The position numbers and the translations under genes are program-made. Below the pieces are notes generated by a model. The model was not told the origin of the DNA. It searched no databases and worked only from the letters and a program-made list of their open reading frames with translations. Of a stretch of 64,000 nt of DNA, positions 23,801-63,500 are shown one piece after another. The number at the start of each line of letters is the position of its first letter. The stretch's first letter is position 1. Source of the stretch: Cloeon dipterum (taxonomy: Eukaryota; Arthropoda; Insecta; Ephemeroptera; Baetidae); the NCBI RefSeq assembly GCF_949628265.1, contig NC_088790.1, forward strand, positions 1,988,545 to 2,052,544, in the 5' to 3' direction.

Positions 23801-26800
23801 GTCGGCGGAAAACGCTTTCGGACGCGATTCTCGAATTAAAATCTGACTTTCGGACGGTTTTTGAGAAGAAAAACAGGCACGGCCCCAAATTGATCGATTT
23901 TTTTATTCGATTTTCTGTTTCGAAATATCGGGGGATTCTTTTTGGATTGCCAAAACGATATTTTATTGAAATTCCGATTTTCGAAGAAAACATTTGCTGT
24001 TTTCTCCAGGATTTTTTTTATTTTATTTCTAGTCACCTTTATAGCTAATTTTTTCCTAATTTCTCTCCCTGTAACTGAAATTTCTAGGGCTCTGTTAAAT
24101 TTGATTAATTTTAAGGCTGATTTTATGTGTAAAGTGTATTTAAAAATATTTTTGCAAATTCCTGAAATTAATCTATAAAATGGCAGAAAAATTTAATCAG
24201 TAGCTATAGAAATTATCGTTTTCAGCAATAAAAAAAGAAAAGTATATACGTCCAAAAAATGGTTTAAAAAAATTCCTAACAATTGTTTCTATCAGAAAAT
24301 TTATACTAAAATCATTCTTGAGCAAATTTTTTTTATCTGATTAGAAAAATAAATTGGGGCAGTTCCTTCCTTATTTAAATCAAAATGCCTATTACAGAGT
24401 AAAAATTAATCAATAAAAACGATATTTCCGAATCGATGTATCGAAATGAAAATCGATTTTCGAAAATCAATCGGCAAAAGTCAATTTTCTTGGCTGCGGC
24501 CTCCGGTCGGCCTTTTCTCGCGCCTCCATTCGGAATTTGGGCCGTCGGGGCGGGCGCGGGCCGAACGGGGCCCCCGGTGTGTGGAGGGTTGCTCCGGGGG
24601 GTTGGCAGCAGTGGGGGCGGCCGCCGACCAAGGATGGTGGACGAACCGATAGACCTGGTCAAGGTGAAATGCGACTCGACGGACGACCTGGCCGACGAGG
24701 AGCAGCCGCGCGACCTTTCGTGCAAGCGGCGCCACGCGGCCGACGAGCCGCGCGACCTTTCGCTCAAGTCGGTGGCGGCGGCGCGCGGCTCCGAGCCGCA
24801 GACGGCGCCGCTCGACTTCTCGGCGCGCGCCCTCGCACCTCCCCCGCCCCTGTTTTTCGACCTGAGAACCAAGCTGTGGCAGCTGGGCGCCGCCACAGGG
24901 CCGCTCGCCCTACCCTGGTCTAACGAAAGCAGTGTTTCCCGCAGGTCGGAGCAGAAGGGCAGCACCGGCTCGGCCTCGGAGGGCGGCAAATCACAGGAGT
25001 CTTCCAGCCAGGCCCTAGGTGCGTATTTTTTGCCTTCCACCTTCCACCTTCGCTCTTCTTTTTCTCTCGCTCTCGGATGTCACTCTCTCAGACTGGCGGA
25101 CGCTGCTCGTGGCGCCATCCAGCACCGACCAGACTGGCAAACAAGTGGTTCCTTGCCCTTGTTGTTTTTGTTGTTTCTCGCTTCTCATTTCCAACAGATT
25201 TTCGCTACAAATCGCAGTGTGATGATGGAGAGATTTCAATAAAATTGTCTGCTTCATTCATTTCACGACGAGAAAACAAAAACCTGGACATTCCATCTGA
25301 GCACTTTCTTGACTAATTTTTAAATATAAATATTGAGCACCTTTCCCTTTGGATGAATTAATTTTATTTTGTTTATTAAACTGTCTATCTCTCGGGCAAT
25401 TATTTTAAATAATTTTTTTATCTTGCATTTATAAAAATTCATAAAACAATTAAATTCGGAATACCCATTAACGAGACGAATTTTTCAATCTTTTCTTTTA
25501 CCGAATTTCTTTTGTTGAAATTGGTTGCAAAAAACACGCATTTTTTTGTAAAAATCGTTTACTTGATATTTAATTGTAAGCAGTTTCTTGCAGGCAATTT
25601 TTACACCCCCTCCCCCCAATTTTCAATCATTTACTCGACTTGAAAAATTATCAAAGATTTTTTTTAGAAATGGCAATTTTTAAGAAAAAAATCTGCACAG
25701 TAGAGGAAATTTTGACCACTCCGACTGCAAATTTTAGATTTTCACAGAGGAAATTTTGAAGAATTCATTTCCTGTGCAAAGGAATATTAAAAAAAGTGCA
25801 GAAAGTAAGCAAAATGCAACCTTGGCTCTTAATTCTTGAAGCTCTAATTTTATTTTTGTTTTATCTCATTTTTATAGCATTTCGGAAATTCAATTTTTTT
25901 TTTACAAAATATCGCTCGATTTTAATTAAAGATAACCTTTAGTTGTTCGACCGAACCATCCAAGCACAATATTAATTTTAAATTCACTGCGAAAATCTCG
26001 ATAAATTAGGTGCCTATGTATGAAATTTTTCAAAAGGAAAGAATCGAATTTTGAAAGTTTGCAATGTGTGTGTGTGTTTGTAGAGAGAAAGAAGCCTCAC
26101 ATAAAGAAACCGCTGAACGCGTTCATGCTGTACATGAAGGAGATGCGTGCCAAGGTGGTGGCCGAGTGCACGCTGAAGGAGAGCGCGGCGATCAACCAAA
26201 TCCTCGGCAGGCGGGTAGGTTTGGCGCCGGCGCCGCCGCGCGCGTGCGCGCACGCGCGCGTCTCGAGCGAGCGTGGCGCGCGTGCGCGCGCACACGCGCG
26301 CGGGGGCTCGGCGGCCGTGTTGCATTAGAGTCGGCAGGCGGGCGCTCAGGGGAAACCAACCGCTATGCCTGCTGGTGCTAGATTTAGCGAGAAATAATTC
26401 AATTTAAAATTTGAACCAATAAAGAGCTGAGGGTATATTGTGTAGTGGCACGGTTTGAGTCGCGACGAGCAGGCCAAATATTACGAGAAGGCGCGGCAGG
26501 AGCGGCAACTGCACATGCAGCTCTACCCCGGCTGGAGCGCCAGAGACAATTACGGCTACGGCACCAAGAAGAAGAAGAGAAAGAAGGAGAAGACCGTGGA
26601 CGGAGGTACTCCCCCGCCCGCGACCTCACAAAAACACCCCCACCTCATTCTCTCAAAAACACCCTCTTCTTGCTTCGGTCAGAACGCTGATGATGATGAT
26701 CGATGATGACGATGCGATGCGGATGCGATATCAAATTTATGTTGCCCAAATTCAGAGCAGAGCAGAGTGGCGGGTTGGGTTAGGGGGCGTGCCCGTCCAG

Positions 26801-29374
26801 GTGGTGGTAGCGGGGAGAGGGGAGGGACGGACGCACGCGACCTGAGTGCCTCGCCGCGCGCGCGTGCGCGTGCGCATGCGCGGACCGATCCCGGCTAGGA
26901 CGGATTCTCACGAGCTATTGGCAATATTGTGCTTGTAGTGGCACGCGCTGGGCCGGGAGGAGCAGGCCAAGTACTACGAGCTGGCGCGACGCGAACGCCA
27001 ACTGCACATGCAGCTGTACCCTGACTGGTCGTCGCGCTCCAACGCCAGTCGCGGCAAGAAGAGGAAGCGCAAGCAGGAGCACGCCGGCGGCGTCGAAGGA
27101 GGTCAGCGCCTGTTTGCATGCGGGCCTCAGTGTCTTTTCAATATGCACCCGTTGTATAACCCCCCCTACTTTTTGCCTGCTACTTTATGTTCTGGCTGTC
27201 TGAATGGCTGTTTTGCTGTTTCAAACATATATCTATATATATACAGATATCATCAGATTTATATATAAATATATTACCAAAAAAAAAATTATATCTTTTT
27301 GATGCTTCTCTATGTATTTGGGCAACATAATTATTTGATTGATTATTATCATCCGTTCTGCAATTTATTCTCGTGGACACACACATACACACACCCACAA
27401 AACCGTTCGGCTGGCTCCGAGTCTAACGCGGTCGACATTTTTTTCACGTTTCAGGCAACAACATGAAGAAGTGCAGGGCCAGATACGGACTGGAGCAGCA
27501 GAGTCAGTGGTGCAAACCATGCAGGTACGGACACGCCCCTTTTTTACTTGTATCCGAAACCGTTTTTTGTGCACAGACACGCTCTCTCTCTCTCTTTCTC
27601 TCCATATATCTCGATCTCTCTCTCTCTCTCTTTTGTTTTGTACTTGCACGTCAGGGGTAAATAATCTAACGTCCCTTACACCCCCTCTCGGACGCACGGC
27701 GCCACCGTCGCACCCTCGCGCAGGGTTAACTGCTGCCAGCAAGAAATTCGATATCCAAAGATATCAACGATTTCCCAAGGATGTCTCAAGGATATTCAAA
27801 GGATATCCTCCAGAATATCCGGATGATATACTTTTGAACAGCCTATGTCATAGGGTGGATATCCTCAGACATGTCCAATTTCTTGCTGGCTGTGTCACTA
27901 ATACACTAAGGTCGGCGTAGAGGGGGTGGGCGGGTGGGCGTGGCGCCGTGCGGGCATGTCGCATGTCGCGGATTTGAAGCAGCAGGAAGGCACTGCGGTG
28001 CGAGTTTGTCGATCAGGGTTTCGAGGTGAGCGAGATCTTGCAGTTTGTAATGTAGGTGGCGGGGTCGAGATTCAGAAAATGTGTCTTCCCTCTAGAGACG
28101 CTGCTGGGAAATGAAAACAGTAACCAGTGAAAGAAATGTAAAATCGAAAATTTTGTTTGCTGTGTTGATTCGGGACACATTTTCTGAAAACAAAGAAAAT
28201 TCTTTTTGATGTGTGAATGTTTCTCTTATTCTGCTCTCTTTGATGGTGCTCTCTTGACTCTTTCTAATCATGGTCATTTTTCTGGTTCTGTTTTTGTTTT
28301 GACAAGCAGCCCCGCTGAGGGGTCAATAAGCAGCGGCAGTGGGGCCGCCACAGGATCCCTGCACGGAGGAGGAGCCACGGCCCAGGAACCCACTTATGTT
28401 AACCTATAGTAGCGCTCTGTGAGTTCATCGTCACTCAGTGTGGGCATGCGCAGTGTTGACTCTCCTTGACATTAATATCAGCCCCGTTCTAATTTTCAGT
28501 TTTGCACGCAGTTTTAACCACCAAGTTTTCAGTTTAACCTAGCCGTTTTCCGATATTATTTATTATTTGTCGATTGTTGGTTCGTTCGTTCGTTCGTCTC
28601 ATCATTTTAGTTTTTAGGACGGCCCGACGAGCGCGCGCGCGCGCCAGGGGCGAGACCTCCGGCGGTCGGAGGGGGGCCGGTGTGGCTGGCGCGCGCGCGC
28701 TCTCCCGCTCGGTGCAATATATTATATAATTTGCGCATGCAGTGGCGCCGGTGTGGCGCGGGCAAATGGCGAGACTGACTCTTTTGTTTTCTCTGTCCCC
28801 GCGGGTGCTTAGGCGCAAGAAGAAGTGCATCCGCTACATGGACCTGAGCGGCAAGGGTGGTGAGCCGGCGGACAGCGAAGTGTCCGACATGAGCAGCGAG
28901 GAGGACACGATGGACGTGGGCAACCGCAGCAGCTGCGGCGGCGGCTCGCCCAACGGGCTGTCGGACATCAACGGGTTGTCGTCGCCGGGCGGCCTCTCGC
29001 TCGGCTCGATGGCGTCGCCGTCGATGGTGCTGCCGTCGCCGTCGGCCAGCCTGGCGTCGCCCAGCATGAGCCTGCAGTCGCCGATGACGCCGACGACGCA
29101 CCACCTGCCCTCCGAGGTGGTGGGCCCCGCGGGGTCTGGGGCGGGGGCCGCGCTGCCGCCCCCGCAGAACCCGCCGTCCAACGCCTCGTCGACGCAGAGC
29201 AGCTCGGCCAGCAGCAGCTCCAGCAGCGCCGCTTCCGGCAGCAGCGGCCTGCCGCCGCCCCACCGCAACCCCGTCGGCACCAACCCCCGCGACATAAACA
29301 ACCCCCTCAGTGTGAACCAGTTGACGGGCCAGGTGAAAGAGACGAGTGGTGCTCGTGCGATTTCAGTGACGTGA
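11714..29374 (+). CDS. pan: pangolin (TCF/LEF HMG-box transcription factor), 5' part missing
   Basis: Nuclear DNA-binding partner of beta-catenin/Armadillo that switches Wnt targets on or off. Core exons, all phase-consistent: 11,714-11,846; 14,932-15,019; 15,623-15,706; 18,492-18,632; 24,945-25,018; 26,084-26,214; one of 26,446-26,605 or 26,939-27,101; 27,455-27,524; 28,813-29,374. With the second HMG exon these add to 1,446 nt (482 codons). Seen in order: the conserved [15 protein letters not shown] block, [14 protein letters not shown], an [12 protein letters not shown] block, the HMG box opening [19 protein letters not shown] and split after GRR, a basic tail, then the C-clamp ([23 protein letters not shown]), which binds helper sites, and a Ser/Pro-rich tail with [11 protein letters not shown]. 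The N-terminal beta-catenin-binding region is not in the window, so the start codon of the long form is unknown. Four alternative segments are listed separately. Identity is certain; exact isoforms are inferred. Confidence 0.95.
12107..12330. repeat. Dispersed repeat, family 3, copy a
   Basis: Shares its start (GACAG.GCCAATCGATT) and its interior (AATTCGTTAT.TTGG, GACCA-like blocks, a right-hand part with CTCTGATTGG and AATAATTAACCGC) with 16,085-16,375. Both copies lie in pan introns in the same orientation. Confidence 0.7.
12614..12811 (+). CDS. pan: pan candidate cassette exon (66 codons, Pro/Ala/Ser-rich)
   Basis: A pyrimidine-rich stretch ending in ATATAG precedes the segment; it ends TCA G|GTTGGC. 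Both ends are phase 1, matching the donor at 11,846 and the acceptor at 14,932, and the length is 198 nt, so inclusion or skipping keeps frame. The strongly GC-rich third positions and the peptide ending [10 protein letters not shown] look coding. An ATG at 12,643 would also allow use as an alternative first exon. I do not recognise this peptide from other TCFs, and the donor is weak. The CTG/GCT repeat just upstream (about 12,530-12,553) is outside the exon. Confidence 0.55.
13300..13900. repeat. Tandem degenerate repeat, family 8 (about two units)
   Basis: Two units about 280 bp apart share CATTTTTGGAATC.GCTC.GCG followed by ACGAATAATG or CGAATGATG, plus AACGGCTTTCCCGGAAAATTGG. This is the same family as 19,205-20,100, which is in the opposite orientation. 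It lies in a pan intron. Confidence 0.7.
14578..14800. repeat. Foldback element in pan intron
   Basis: The left arm GGAGCCACCAACAGTTGGC (about 14,584) pairs with the right arm GCCAGTTGGTGGCTCC (about 14,766). Inner matches are TTCATTTACTGAAA against TAAATGAACTG. It is an imperfect 220-bp palindrome without coding content. A similar edge (GCCGCCAATAGATGGCGCC) occurs near 56,720. Confidence 0.7.
14932..15019 (+). CDS. pan: pan exon: [14 protein letters not shown] block
   Basis: The acceptor is ATTGCAG and the donor GTGAGT. The exon enters in phase 1 (codon GGT) and leaves in phase 2 (TG|G, Trp). The peptide [24 protein letters not shown] matches the conserved central region of insect TCF. Both flanking joins give unbroken reading. 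Confidence 0.9.
15113..15492. repeat. Full-length family 2 palindromic element (MITE-like)
   Basis: Terminal arms of about 90 bp (left with GTCTTTGACGAGGTTTCTCAG and GGTCGAATTAGGTAAAGTGG; right with the complements) enclose a second inverted pair built on GAATGCGAGAAG and a CGCATGCGCA core. The flanks carry a same-strand duplication of about 30 bp, GGGCGTGTCCCTTGTCACAA, at about 15,093 and 15,495. Other copies are at 22,315-22,625, 42,540-42,850 and 8,160-8,290. Confidence 0.85.
15623..15706 (+). CDS. pan: pan exon: [11 protein letters not shown] block
   Basis: The acceptor TTTGCAG follows a T-rich tract; the donor is GTAGGT. Phase 2 in, phase 2 out, so the 84-nt exon is itself phase-neutral and could be skipped without frameshift. 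The peptide (W)[18 protein letters not shown] continues the conserved SWH.PS block of insect TCF. Confidence 0.88.
16085..16375. repeat. Dispersed repeat, family 3, copy b
   Basis: Second copy of the element at 12,107-12,330. It begins GACAGTGCCAATCGATTGCT and ends in a GACGCCGG..CAAATAATAAACCGC block. It differs mainly by an insertion after the first 40 bases. Confidence 0.7.
18492..18632 (+). CDS. pan: pan exon: [12 protein letters not shown] block
   Basis: The acceptor is TGTTGCAG and the donor AG|GTACCT, with phase 2 on both sides (141 nt). The peptide from EYFRFSPTG to the [12 protein letters not shown] motif is the region just N-terminal to the HMG domain in TCFs. The following intron is about 6.3 kb and holds most of the repeats in this gene. 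Confidence 0.9.
19205..20100. repeat. Tandem degenerate repeat, family 8 (about 3-4 units of about 280 bp)
   Basis: Starts of the shared phrase TCG(T/C).TCGC(C/T)GA.CAGATTC occur near 19,216, 19,499, 19,773 and 20,063, so the period is roughly 275-290 bp. Each unit also carries TTTTCCCAGAGCAC and a GGAAAA.T block. The array is the inverse of the units at 13,300-13,900. Confidence 0.75.
21085..21430. repeat. Degenerate short repeats with GGCGTGG(C/T) motif, family 9
   Basis: About four loosely repeated phrases of the form GGGCGTGG followed by TTTACTGAGAACTCG-like sequence. The same vocabulary in the opposite orientation (CCACGCC, GCGCTTT) fills 34,395-34,580 and 36,900-37,740. No coding content. 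Confidence 0.55.
22315..22625. repeat. Family 2 palindromic element, copy in pan intron
   Basis: Inner arms CCCGCCAAAACAATATGAAT and complement at about 22,357 and 22,485, each with TGCGCATGCG. The right terminal arm (CCTAATTCGACCCTCA, GTGTGCTCAGAAACTC) is present; the left terminal arm is mostly lost. Confidence 0.8.
23040..23790. other. GC-rich, CpG-rich block in pan intron, possible internal promoter
   Basis: An unusually GC- and CpG-rich stretch inside an AT-rich intron, with no convincing coding frame on either strand. It lies about 0.85 kb upstream of the ATG at 24,634, which opens a frame running into the HMG-side exons. A promoter here would give a TCF lacking the beta-catenin-binding end. 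This is inference from composition and position only; no TATA or initiator was identified. Confidence 0.35.
24609..25018 (+). CDS. pan: pan alternative long exon with PxDLS (CtBP-type) motifs
   Basis: The core exon 24,945-25,018 ([15 protein letters not shown]) is preceded, in the same frame and without a stop, by a clearly coding GC-rich stretch. An ATG at 24,634 in the context CCAAGGATGG could start it, or AG sites at 24,607-24,611 could admit it in phase 2 from the exon ending 18,632. It encodes PRDLSCK (24,706-24,726) and PRDLSLK (24,748-24,768), both perfect PxDLSxK matches, plus weaker PIDLVK (24,646) and PLDFSAR (24,808). PxDLS is the known docking motif for the co-repressor CtBP. The short form uses the acceptor at 24,943-24,944. 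The coding nature is well supported; whether it is a first exon or a retained extension is open. Confidence 0.75.
26084..26214 (+). CDS. pan: pan exon: first half of HMG box
   Basis: The acceptor GTTTGTAG follows a GT repeat; the donor is R|GTAGGT in phase 0. It encodes [18 protein letters not shown] through [10 protein letters not shown], that is helix 1, helix 2 and the minor-groove wedge residues of the HMG domain. The box is completed by one of two alternative downstream exons, both starting with TGG (Trp). Confidence 0.97.
26220..26310. other. Alternating GC/GT purine-pyrimidine tract
   Basis: Just after the donor of the HMG exon lies a tract of alternating CG, GC, GT and AC steps (GCGCGTGCGCGCACGCGCGCG and similar), which is self-complementary and prone to left-handed DNA or stable RNA hairpins. 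A matching tract is at 26,854-26,884, on the other side of the first alternative HMG exon. Confidence 0.85.
26446..26605 (+). CDS. pan: pan alternative exon A: second half of HMG box, vertebrate-like
   Basis: The acceptor is ATTGTGTAG and the donor GGA G|GTACTC; phase 0 in, phase 1 out, 160 nt. It encodes [35 protein letters not shown] and a basic tail [10 protein letters not shown]. The GWSARDNYG wording is that of vertebrate TCF/LEF proteins. Compared with exon B it changes L to K in helix 3 (YYEKAR against YYELAR). It cannot be joined to exon B in frame (160 nt), so use must be mutually exclusive. Confidence 0.85.
26854..26884. other. Second alternating CG/GT tract between the alternative HMG exons
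   Basis: CGCGCGCGTGCGCGTGCGCA, followed by TGCGCGG, is complementary in the sense of G-C and G-U pairing to the tract at 26,220-26,310. The two bracket exon A. Confidence 0.85.
26939..27101 (+). CDS. pan: pan alternative exon B: second half of HMG box, insect-like
   Basis: The acceptor is TGCTTGTAG and the donor GGA G|GTCAGC; phase 0 in, phase 1 out, 163 nt. It encodes [37 protein letters not shown] and [26 protein letters not shown] is the wording of Drosophila pangolin, so this is the canonical insect exon. Both ends match exon A in phase. Confidence 0.95.
27455..27524 (+). CDS. pan: pan exon: N-terminal part of C-clamp
   Basis: The acceptor is CGTTTCAG and the donor GTACGG; phase 1 in, phase 2 out. 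It encodes [20 protein letters not shown] and PC, supplying three of the four cysteines of the C-clamp, a zinc-binding accessory DNA-binding domain of TCFs. The fourth comes from the exon at 28,813 (KKKC). Confidence 0.95.
27735..27890. repeat. Short TIR element, family 7, copy a
   Basis: Left end GCAAGAAATTCGATATCC and right end CCAATTTCTTGCTGG are terminal inverted repeats. The interior is rich in GGATATC phrases and contains TACTTTTGAACAGC and TATGTCATAGGG. Copies are at 30,298-30,402 and, partial, at 54,102-54,165. Confidence 0.8.
28310..28411 (+). CDS. pan: pan candidate alternative terminal exon truncating the C-clamp
   Basis: The acceptor ACAAGCAG follows a T-rich tract. In phase 2 from the donor at 27,524 it reads [20 protein letters not shown], then [13 protein letters not shown] and stop (the codon after 28,409). 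The joined protein would keep three C-clamp cysteines and lose the fourth plus the KKKCIRYM segment. If joined from the HMG exon directly (phase 1) it would stop after six codons. The GC-rich, open, Gly/Ser-rich frame and clean phase support it, but I do not recognise the peptide. Confidence 0.5.
28813..29374 (+). CDS. pan: pan exon: end of C-clamp and Ser/Pro-rich tail
   Basis: The acceptor is GTGCTTAG, phase 2 in. It opens [10 protein letters not shown], completing the C-clamp, followed by an acidic stretch ([11 protein letters not shown]) and a long Ser/Pro/Gly tail ending [11 protein letters not shown] and a stop at 29,372-29,374. A GTGAAA donor directly after LTGQ (29,331) would allow splicing to a further exon near 31,135. 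Confidence 0.93.
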
Positions 29375-43661: not shown

Positions 43662-45643
43662 TCAGTTTATCTGCTGATCCAGCGGCTGTTGGCGCATTTT
43701 GAACCACGGCGTCTCCTTGTAGACGAACCACAGGTCAGCGGTCCACAGGAAGAAGTTCAAAAACCCTAGAATCTGCAAAACACAAAGCAATGCAAAATAT
43801 AGTTTAAATTTCTGTTGGGAATGTTAGAATTATTTTTTTCGTAAGAACATTTCAAAAGATCAAAAGAATTATGTTTGAAAAGTAAAGAACGCGGCAGTAT
43901 CAGCTGGCGACAGTAGAGTCATCTGCGAGCTCCGAGCTGAGAGCAGAGAAGCACACCGAGCAGTCACGTGACTCAATCCCGCCATATCCCATTGGCCAAG
44001 AGCCTTGATGCGTGCGCACTCAGTTGCGCATGCCACAATCCTCAGAGTGCGGTATTACAAGAGGAGGGAGAAGCCAATGAAATGCGGCATTGTGTCACGT
44101 GACTGCTCGAACTAGCTGTTTCTGGCCTTCAATCCTGGCCATGGGCAGATGTCGCCACTGTTGCTACCGCGTTCTTTCCTTCATGAAGACGCACACTTTT
44201 TGGACGCGAATTTCTCGGTCGCAATTTTGTCTGCGGTCATGTTTCCGAATTTATTATTAAATAAATCAACTCGAGCTCTTTCGTTGGGCAAGTTGATCGA
44301 ATTTTTTAAGTTTTATTAGAACCGAGTAATAAAACTTCATTTACGAATTTGCCGAATTTCCCAAAAAATTAAAACGGTTTATACGATTTTTTCCCAGCAA
44401 ACATTCACAATTAGCGGTTTTAAGTCTGATTAAAATAAATTTCCCAGGATTTTTAATCCAACCAGGGTCATAAAAATACCGAATATCCTACCTACAGCGC
44501 CACCCAACAAATTATTTCCCGCTCGTAAGAAAAAAGAAATGGTTTGGCACTCACAACAGAGGTGTTGAGCCCAGAGAAGCTTCCGGTGGTGACCGTGGTG
44601 CAGAAGTCGTCCTTGGCGCACTGGACGGTGCGCATGAGGATGCCAGGGTCGGTGGAGTGCTTGATGCCCGAGAGGCCGTTGGCCCAGGCGGCGCTGGCCG
44701 AGAGCCAGAGCAGGGCGAGCAGCGCCGTGCCGCCAAAGTCTGCCAGAGGGATGAGCGGGTTGCTCTGGTACTTGGCCTCGTAGAGCGCGTAGCCGGTGGC
44801 GGCGGCCGCCGCCCCCAGCAGCGACAGCACGCCCACCGCCACGAAGAACTCGGCGTCCGAGCTGAAGTCGCCGTAGAGCGTCAGGTAGCGGTCCGCCGGG
44901 TGCGTGCACGCCACCTGCCGCGAAAGGTGGTCCAGCTTGAACGGGTAGTCGTAGGGGAACTTGACCACGTTGGCCGGCGCCGGCGGCGGGCACTTGACGC
45001 TGAACGTCACCTCGTTGTCGTACGAGCAGATCGAGATGATGGCAAACAGCGAGAACACCTGCAAAAATAACATTAGTTTATCTTGAAAATATTTATTTGT
45101 ATGAGCCAATCGCTACAAAAGGCAGGACGGCCGAAGATAAGATAACTTGTTTACTCAGGGTTGTAAAACAGTACAACAAGGATAATGTATTTTTACTACT
45201 TCAAAGAGATTGGAGAAAGCTAGTGAAAAAAAGTGGCGATTCAATTTAAATCGCATGAGAAAATTACGAAACGGTTTAACTTACGAAATGAATAATTCGC
45301 ATCACGCCTCTAGGCTCTCGGAAAATGTCCAAGTTGATCTGCATGGATGACTTGAGGTTTTGCAAAAGCCCGCCACTTGGTCCTGGGGGTTGCTGCAATT
45401 TTAGTCAATTTGTTTAGAATAACAAAATATCCAATCTAAAAAACTAACCATTCCAGTGTCGTACTGGCTCGGCATGTCCTGCCAAATGACAAAAAACATT
45501 GAGCATTAAAATCAATTTCAAGGCTTAAAGGGTTAAACGGTCACCTGCTGAGTCTCCGGGTCATATCCTTGCAGCTTGAAAAGAAACGCATTTGACTCGA
45601 GCTGCGTGAAAAAGAGCGAATTCGCACTCACCTGAGACGCCAT
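43662..45643 (-). CDS. SYP: Synaptophysin-family vesicle membrane protein
   Basis: Four-pass MARVEL-domain protein of synaptic and other small secretory vesicles. Exons on the - strand: 45,632-45,643; 45,545-45,574; 45,449-45,478; 45,285-45,392; 44,555-45,058; 43,662-43,772 (795 nt, 264 aa), every junction in phase 0. Seen: VFSLFAIISICSY (first membrane segment, completed from MRIIHF), a luminal loop ending YLTLYGDFSSDAEFF, then a second hydrophobic segment, ADFGGTALLALLWLSASAAW (third), a cysteine-bearing loop (VQCAKDDFC), SGLNTSV and FLNFFLWTADLWFVYKETPW (fourth). The GDFSS.AEFF and SGLNTSV blocks separate it from synaptogyrin. The cytoplasmic tail is very short (FKMRQQPLDQQIN), unlike the long Tyr/Gly tail of vertebrate synaptophysin. 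Exons 2 and 3 are 30-nt microexons. It is divergent from the sulfotransferase gene. Confidence 0.92.
43890..44235. repeat. Family 4 repeat with GTCACGTGAC sites, in synaptophysin intron
   Basis: Shared with 47,480-48,075: a GACAGTAGAG.CATCTG block, AGCAGAGAAGCACA, GAGCAGTCACGTGACTC, CCATTGGCC, GAGTG.GGTATTACAAGAG, and at the end CACTTTTTGGACGCGAA. GTCACGTGAC occurs at 43,963-43,972 and 44,094-44,103. Confidence 0.8.
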
Positions 45644-60500: not shown

Positions 60501-63500
60501 TAAAAACGCGAATTATCCAGTTTGGTGTCTTTTTATAGGTTTTCCACCCGGTGCAATACAAATATGGTGTCAAATTTTAGTATTTAACTCACCAAACGAG
60601 AGTTAAAAATTTATTCTGATAAATTTTTCGTAAAGTTAATTATTTTCCTTTTCAGCATTGCCATCGAGTACACTTACTCTCGTCACTCGATCGGGCCCGT
60701 GAAAGCGACCGAGTATTTCCCCAAAGTGGCCCGGAATCACGCTATAGCCCAGCCGGTGCCCGATCTGAACGTTGCGCCCCATTTGTTGGTGAAGGGCCCG
60801 TGTCCGCGGATCGACCGCAGCTTGTTTGTGCCAGGCTTTCCCACGTTCCGCCACATTGAGTTCACGACGCGGCTTGAGTCGATCGGGGTGAAGGTTTTCG
60901 ACTCGCCGGCGCAGAAGGACCGGCCGACCATGGTGCTCAGGTTGAAGCCGATTGCGCTCAAGAGCTCCGCCGACTTCCAGCACCTGCTCGGCACCTCTGT
61001 GTGGGTGCACTATCCGCACTTGCAAGAGGCAATCGTCGAGGCTGTCGTCGACAGGGCGCAAACGCTGACCCTGAGCAAAGCGAACGGAAACAGGGAAATC
61101 ATCGAGGCCAGCACTGAAGAGACCCAGTTTGTCAGGGCATCAAAGGATATTTTAGAAAGGTTACATTTGCTTTATAATCACTTGCCTCTTTTTTTCTGTA
61201 AAGAACAGACTAACCTAAAAATTAAAAAAAAATTAGATAAAAATTAAAACTAACTAAACTGAAAACTAGGGAAAATTGTTTAAATTTGTTAAATTGGAAG
61301 AAATTAAAAAAATATACAATATATTTTCAGGTACTATGGAAGGCTAGGGATAGTTGTTGGAGAAATAAACGTGGTGTTGAAAGTGCGCATTCTGGAGGGC
61401 AGGACGTTTTCCTACTCGGTTCACGGAAAGGTGACCGTCGAGAAAAAGGCGAGTTTTTGTCACTCTCTGCGACAGCAAATTGACTTATTAAATTTATTCG
61501 CAGTGGGCCGCAGTGGAGGAGAGTTTCGCCGCGCAAACTGTGGTTCCAACTCTCAAAGCTTTAGCTCCACAAATTTCTCAGTTCGATTCCGTACACGATG
61601 TTTTCAAGGTGGACTCTCTTTGCTTCCTCACTCACGCCCAGAACTACGGCTACCCAGCCAAGGTAGCTGATTGTTTTCCTGTTACAAAGGTGACCAAAAT
61701 GAAATGAAACCTTTATTTTCTCAACAGGTTTTGCCGCCAAATAAACCAAACAGAGTAAACGTGGAAGTGCAAATTCCTCAAGACCCGCCTCTCGATAAAA
61801 TGCTGAGCACGATGGAGGCTAACAGTATGGCCTATCTGCCATGTAAGTTGGAATTGCGTTGATAATTAAAATACTGTGTATATTAGACGGTTTGATAGTA
61901 GCAAAAATCTCTCTTCAGCTGAGATAAAAAATAAAGAGACAGGGAGTTTTCCTCTGAGCCAAAAATCGGCAAAGTATCGCATTTTGGCTTCAAAATCAAT
62001 CAATCGACGCGTTTTGAACATTTTATATAAGTGCAGATTTGAAGGGCGGCAGCTATCGGGTCTAGAAGTCGCAAAAATAACGTATTTTTTTATTTTTGCA
62101 CCCAAATTAAAAATTCATACCATGCTACAAATATCATTAAAATAATAAAACCGTAAAAGCTGTAAAAGCATTTTTAAATAATAATAATTGTAACATGTGT
62201 ATTTATTTATGGCTCAATTTTTAGTGGCGGACATATTTGAAAATATCCTCTGCCTCAATTTACTGGAACCCTTCATTTCTAGGCATCAAAGTGTGCCGGT
62301 TCGTGGGCCTGCCCGCCGCCACGGTGTCCAAAGTGACCGGCGTGCTGCTGATGGCGAACCCGAAGGAGCCTCGCAACCGAATAAACATCGGACTGGGTCT
62401 GAAAATGCACATGCAGAACAAGGCGGTTCCGGGTTACGCCAAGAGGGACAACAACGAGTGGAGCTACTCGCAGAAGGCGGTCGACCTGCTGCGCGAGTAC
62501 ATTCGCCGCTTCCCCGAGGTGTTCAGCTTCTTGCAGTGCAGCAGGGACAGGCCGCAGAACAGAAACGAGTACATCAAGTCCACAGACATCTTCACCCTCA
62601 ACTGGTAGTTTTATTCATTTATTTTAAAAAGTAAAGTCTGCTAAAAGCGGCTCTTTTGCAGCGACGAGCGGCTGGAGGAGCTGAAAAAGTGGCTCTCAGA
62701 GCAGGCCGGCAGCAGGATGGACGCGAGGAAGTGCGACTCCCTCGCGCTTGATCCGCTTGACGTGCTGGCGCTCGAGAAAATGATCAGTCAGTGGAGTGCA
62801 CACAAGGTCGACGCATGCACACGCAAGCTTGAGCTTGATCCTCAGTTTTTGTTTAAGGTATAACGAACACCAGCTGGAAATTTTTACCAATTTAGGTCAT
62901 TTTTCGGAGCAAAAAAAGTCTAGCAATATGGGAAAATGTTTTGGTCTTTTTGGTGATACCTCTTAATGTATTTTTACGAATTTGATTATTATTTTTTATT
63001 TATTAATTTTTCCTTTTATTATTGAAGTTTGTGGTGTATAATCTTTTTTCCGTTCGGTTCATAGAGGGCATAATGGATTAATAATTACATTTCAATAGAC
63101 ATAAATCCAAACTTTAAAAATAAGCTAAAAAGGAAGGATCAAATAATTAAAAAACTAAAAATTATTTTAAAAGGCTTTTGAAATTTAGAAAATGCATTTA
63201 AAAGTGGTCCCAAGACAAGTTTGGACTTTGCACAAAGTTTAATAGCGATCGATTTTTTGTTTTCAAGAAATTATATTTCAAAATTCGAAAAAATATGAAT
63301 TTTTTAAATTAATATTTTTGAAACTCCAAATCTTGGGTTCTAACTACCAGAATTGCGAAAACTACCCACCGCTGGACTCATATCGACCTGCTGAAGAGTT
63401 TAGGGGTGCTTCCACCACAAAGTTGCTCTCCTTCAACCCCCTGGAAAAAATAAAAAATTTTATTCAGTTAATTTTTAGTTTATTTTTGAATATTTAGAAA

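Follow-up and report, generated by a model that had tools for sequence, protein, structure and literature searches.

Two neighbouring exons of the Cloeon dipterum TCF/LEF gene as putative mutually exclusive ends of its HMG box

Most invertebrates are described with one TCF for all Wnt outputs. Mutually exclusive exons that stem from tandem exon duplication are homologous neighbours of equal phase, held by a frame lock against double use. Here we analyse a 64,000-nucleotide (nt) stretch of the Cloeon dipterum genome (NC_088790.1, positions 1,988,545 to 2,052,544 of the forward strand; hereafter the window), in which the HMG box of the TCF/LEF gene pangolin begins in one exon and would be completed by either of two neighbouring exons, termed A and B. 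The assembly comprises 190 Mb in 10 contigs, of which five measure 33-43 Mb; the window corresponds to C5:1988545-2052544, and all other coordinates refer to the window unless prefixed with C. What sets this pair apart from mutually exclusive exons in general is its position in the DNA-binding domain of a signalling effector encoded by one gene copy.

The closest described system is the single Tcf gene of the annelid Platynereis dumerilii, in which part of the HMG domain is encoded by either of two alternative exons (PMC5996498). As in that gene, each alternative HMG exon of the present locus can be joined to the same C-clamp exon; unlike in that gene, the beginning of the box is common here, and its second half and the basic tail are alternative (PMC5996498). 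In vertebrates, splicing of TCF7 and TCF7L2 takes the C-clamp (E-tail) or a context-dependent domain in or out (PMC4267635, PMC4999783, PMC8651982), which resembles the present case in altering the DNA-binding outfit that adjoins the HMG box, and the conserved HMG domain is reported for all LEF/TCF isoforms (PMC4267635). Anopheles pangolin yields maternal and zygotic transcripts with different 3′ untranslated regions, the maternal form carrying seven additional C-terminal residues (PMC6783274). The initial annotation of the window knew of no described case of such a switch in a TCF. Among the open-access literature matches listed, this holds for the second half of the box, for which none describes alternative exons, but not for the domain as a whole, as Platynereis Tcf alternates another HMG part; the passages considered on Pan do not mention a second version of its HMG domain.

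The standard Drosophila Pan presumably ends like A, with a GWSARDNYG-type extension and a KKKKRKK tail, and ends like that of B presumably occur in insect Pan records. A linker of 10 residues given for TCF/Pan (PMC4154663) fits such an A-like end. If this is right, the exon pair is probably common to insects and may already be contained in public gene models. The annelid case, together with any existing annotation, restricts how new the present pair can be.

The exon pair and its gene

We consider it highly probable, judging from the sequence, that A and B represent an old tandem exon duplication and are mutually exclusive exons of a single TCF/LEF gene. As the initial annotation had stated, both exons open with TGG in phase 0 and finish in phase 1; their intron borders are AG and GT (Table 1). 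Its further claim that both complete the HMG box is borne out by full matches to PF00505: joined to the common exon, A and B gave composite boxes that cover positions 1-69 of the model with 79.6 and 79.8 bits, respectively. When the exons were spliced in silico, common-A-C-clamp and common-B-C-clamp were both open to the stop at 29374. Use of both exons does break the frame, with common-A-B-C-clamp running into a stop inside B, and the lock extends to the skipping of both, the common exon joined straight to the C-clamp meeting a stop after three residues. The locus therefore has the anatomy expected of mutually exclusive exons, namely tandem, homologous, same-phase exons with an early stop on double use or double skipping. 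This anatomy, the intactness of both exons and the combination of saturated synonymous sites with a conserved protein (see below) make mutually exclusive use of A and B very likely. A tblastn search of the window with A and B (E up to 10) returned no third copy, the next matches having E-values of 0.16 and 5.6.

Retention of either downstream intron would truncate the product. With the intron after A retained (26606-26706), the protein would end 33 residues further, and with the intron after B (27102-27268) it would end 55 residues further, in both cases without a C-clamp. Truncation by intron retention has also been published for a Platynereis Tcf intron (PMC5996498).

Table 1. Exons and introns around the alternative part of the HMG box (window coordinates; a slash marks the exon-intron border in donor motifs)
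Feature	Position	Strand	Details
Common HMG-box exon	26084-26214	+	box start to ...AINQILGRR; ends in phase 0; donor CGG/GTAGGT
Common-A intron	26215-26445	+	231 nt; holds (GC/GT)n hairpin
Alternative exon A	26446-26605	+	160 nt; phase 0 to 1; donor GAG/GTACTC; pyrimidine-poor acceptor
A-B intron	26606-26938	+	333 nt; alternating GC tract 26855-26882
Alternative exon B	26939-27101	+	163 nt; phase 0 to 1; donor GAG/GTCAGC
First C-clamp exon	27455-27524	+	phase 1 to 2; donor CAG/GTACGG
Exon completing the C-clamp	28813-29374	+	extends to stop (...AISVT*)
Possible extra alternative exon (weak lead)	28310-28418	+	CAG acceptor; donor TCT/GTGAGT

The gene at this locus is the only TCF/LEF (pangolin) gene found in this insect genome. 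A TCF query found a strong match at this locus only, with an E-value of 1.6e-31 for exon A as compared to 5.7e-8 for the best match outside the locus (190-Mb genome, 19 best candidates scored). At that scope, no comparable TCF match exists elsewhere, in agreement with the single Wnt effector assumed in the initial annotation. Mouse LEF-1 (2lef) was the best match of the common exon combined with either A (E 2.5e-45) or B (E 2.4e-43), values so low that the LEF-1 likeness of both versions is not due to chance. The box is of the LEF-type, sequence-specific kind that marks the TCF/LEF family (2lef, PF00505), and the four-cysteine C-clamp typical of most invertebrate family members is present, encoded across two exons. 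At the 5′ end of the common exon, the G at 26083 is part of the TAG acceptor and not of the exon. An exon for the N-terminal beta-catenin-binding segment of the family (MPHV...GDDLGSTDEVKVFKDEG...) is located 21 kb upstream of the window, at C5:1967374; it scored 28.5 bits against PF08347 (cut-off 22.4) and was the sole match found in the genome. We infer that it belongs to this TCF gene, which would then be ~50 kb long.

A separate C-clamp-like match was observed at C5:6201140-6201244 (locus L020; 46% identity, E 4e-5), with one TAG within the match. Our guess is that it encodes a protein of the GLUT4EF/HDBP type; a motif scan of its plus strand returned nothing.

Divergence between A and B

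In a 55-column alignment, A and B have 36 identical residues. Across their 39 ungapped codons, the proportion of differing sites was 0.64 at synonymous (pS; dS 1.47) and 0.21 at non-synonymous positions (pN), resulting in a dN/dS of 0.16; this divergence comes from a single pair in a single genome and yields no date. By region, pN rose from 0.10 (codons 1-28) to 0.48 (codons 29-39). Where A and B encode the same residue (W and M excluded), 13 of 25 codon pairs were identical, as compared to 14.2 expected from independent draws under the gene's own codon usage (third-position GC content 0.90 over 254 codons). Synonymous likeness is thus no greater than codon bias would give, which argues for an old tandem duplication in which protein likeness was kept by selection, with both copies under constraint.

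The initial annotation had described A as vertebrate-like and B as Drosophila-like, a contrast that is too simple: each is a mosaic when compared with LEF1 (2lef), A being LEF1-like in the extension and B in helix 3, and the usual Drosophila Pan would itself be of the A-like form. In the helix part (28 positions), A differs from LEF1 at 4 positions and B at 2; in the extension (9 positions), A differs at none and B at 5 (Fisher p 0.029 for the extension contrast, from one pair of sequences). Overall, A keeps 41 and B 37 of the 46 LEF1 residues compared. The Pfam box stops at exon residue 31, with A and B differing at 6 of these 31 residues, and both tails are strongly basic. The change between the exons thus falls mostly on the C-terminal extension and the basic tail, most of the box being common.

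The basic tail of LEF-1 occupies the compressed major groove, where it stabilises the DNA bend. Each of A and B would complete the HMG box with the end of helix 2 and helix 3 and add its own extension and basic tail, with the shared C-clamp next. The two versions would then differ mainly in how extension and tail seat on bent DNA, affecting affinity, bend or C-clamp coupling; core site recognition would be little changed, since both contain the common exon and have most of helix 3 in common. In Pan, the HMG domain is reported to be bound and inhibited by the C-clamp (PMC3896468), and such inhibition may be one route by which a different tail takes effect. A functional switch between two HMG versions is plausible.

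Alternatively, A and B might be mutually exclusive yet functionally equivalent, their choice being neutral or tuning output via the decay of wrong messages. This reading, which is compatible with the splicing part of our preferred explanation, would account for the small number of differences inside the Pfam box (6 of 31 residues), the near-equal composite Pfam scores and the strongly basic nature of both tails. We nevertheless hold it to be rather unlikely, given that the change is concentrated after helix 3, where B departs from LEF1 at 5 of 9 positions and A at none (p 0.029, as above), and that the tail of LEF-1 contacts the compressed major groove.

It is improbable that only one exon works while its neighbour survives as a relic or as a cassette that is seldom spliced in. 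While the poor donor and pyrimidine-poor acceptor of A would be in line with such a fate, both exons are open, in phase, AG/GT-bordered and box-completing. Moreover, saturation at synonymous sites goes together with few residue changes in codons 1-28, unlike what a relic would show, and LEF1 residues are retained by A (41 of 46) as well as by B (37 of 46).

Choice between the two exons

If A and B are indeed mutually exclusive, transcripts would carry one or the other, never both. We favour a choice made by a trans-acting splicing factor operating on weak splice sites; messages with double inclusion or double skipping would be cleared by nonsense-mediated decay. Predicted donor pairing with U1 amounted to -5.7 kcal/mol for A and -5.5 kcal/mol for B, compared to -10.6 for the common exon and -7.3 for the first C-clamp exon. 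The acceptor of A has the lowest pyrimidine share of the six acceptors (0.41; others 0.53-0.76). Among the GT dinucleotides of the window, ranked with a consensus table, the donor of A falls at the 87.4th percentile and that of the common exon at the 98.7th. Steric crowding is unlikely to block A-B joining, because the A-B intron is 333 nt long.

Several observations weigh against this account of the pair. B has a donor of moderate strength (97.4th percentile in the same ranking) and an acceptor whose pyrimidine share equals that of the common exon (0.53), so that weak sites are clear for A only. Further, the dS estimate draws on ~25 synonymous sites with a Jukes-Cantor correction and excludes the codons of the gapped ends (14 in A, 15 in B). 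Lastly, scans of viral and prokaryote contigs yielded no relative.

An acceptor element common to A and B (...ATATTGTG...TAG) was considered and rejected as not above chance: of 496 control pairs, 25% attain its score of 19. Among the 15 pairs formed by six acceptors of this gene, three outscored A-B, namely A-common (29), B-first C-clamp (21) and B-common (20).

Within the preferred explanation, the choice could also be enforced by competing RNA pairing of the docking/selector type known from Dscam1, a mechanism to which we assign little probability. The introns on both sides of A do contain long self-complementary GC tracts, including the three longest of the nine alternating GC tracts listed for the window, and the common donor is followed by a (GC/GT)n hairpin of very high predicted stability (-85.2 kcal/mol for the folded segment 26215-26330; z -3.6, 2 of 200 shuffles equally stable), its main stem beginning at the eighth intron base. 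A duplex between the A-B intron and the intron after B was equalled by 8 of 200 shuffles, uncorrected for the three intron pairs tried. However, base pairs predicted to link the common-A intron with the A-B intron total only 0.0006 in the ensemble, the duplex of these two introns was matched by 19 of 200 shuffles, and that of the common-A and B-D introns by 199 of 200. Pairing across exon A was not predicted, and on that side intron pairing was rejected as a selector, the signal for the introns flanking B being weak. Likewise, the GC tracts were discarded as a specific element, as they represent a genome-wide simple repeat, with 278 forward matches (≤2 mismatches) as compared to 306 for a reversed-pattern control.

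An assembly artefact, in the form of two haplotypes or a false tandem copy, has nothing seen in its favour and is virtually out of the question, as A and B have only 36 identical residues in 55 columns and saturated synonymous sites, and the intron ends upstream of them are alike at chance level (25% of 496 control pairs as good).

Further features and significance

In the intron between the two C-clamp exons, the possible exon at 28310-28418 is preceded at its acceptor by a T-rich stretch and encodes 33 codons followed by an in-frame stop (SPAEG...EPTYVNL*). Its use would replace the last (fourth) C-clamp cysteine and the basic run belonging to it. We did not retain it as a truncating exon, its open frame being non-significant and 13 of the 66 AGs in the same intron giving equal length.

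A domain scan covering 10 of the 134 open frames listed for the window identified a MARVEL match (44495-45109, minus strand; 45.1 bits) and an Xrn1 D1 match (60699-61244, plus strand; 57.4 bits), indicating further genes downstream of TCF. An Rfam search of the window gave zero matches. Elsewhere in the genome, an exon at C2:29672023 (locus L036) carries an Orco-like motif, which marks the genome as that of an insect; searched exon by exon, the genome gave at least five matches to 7tm_6 and at least one to PBP_GOBP. TTAGG was absent among the tandem words listed for the ten contig starts (2.5 kb each).

More tentatively, and with the balance somewhat against it, insects might long have kept a splicing choice by which helix 3 and the basic tail of their only TCF are exchanged, yielding two Wnt effectors that differ in DNA bending, affinity or C-clamp coupling. 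If this is true, insects would obtain from one gene a counterpart to what vertebrates have in four TCF genes. Should two spliced DNA-binding versions exist, experiments with a single Pan cDNA would cover only one half of this effector, and differences between tissues in their Wnt targets would get a simple cause.
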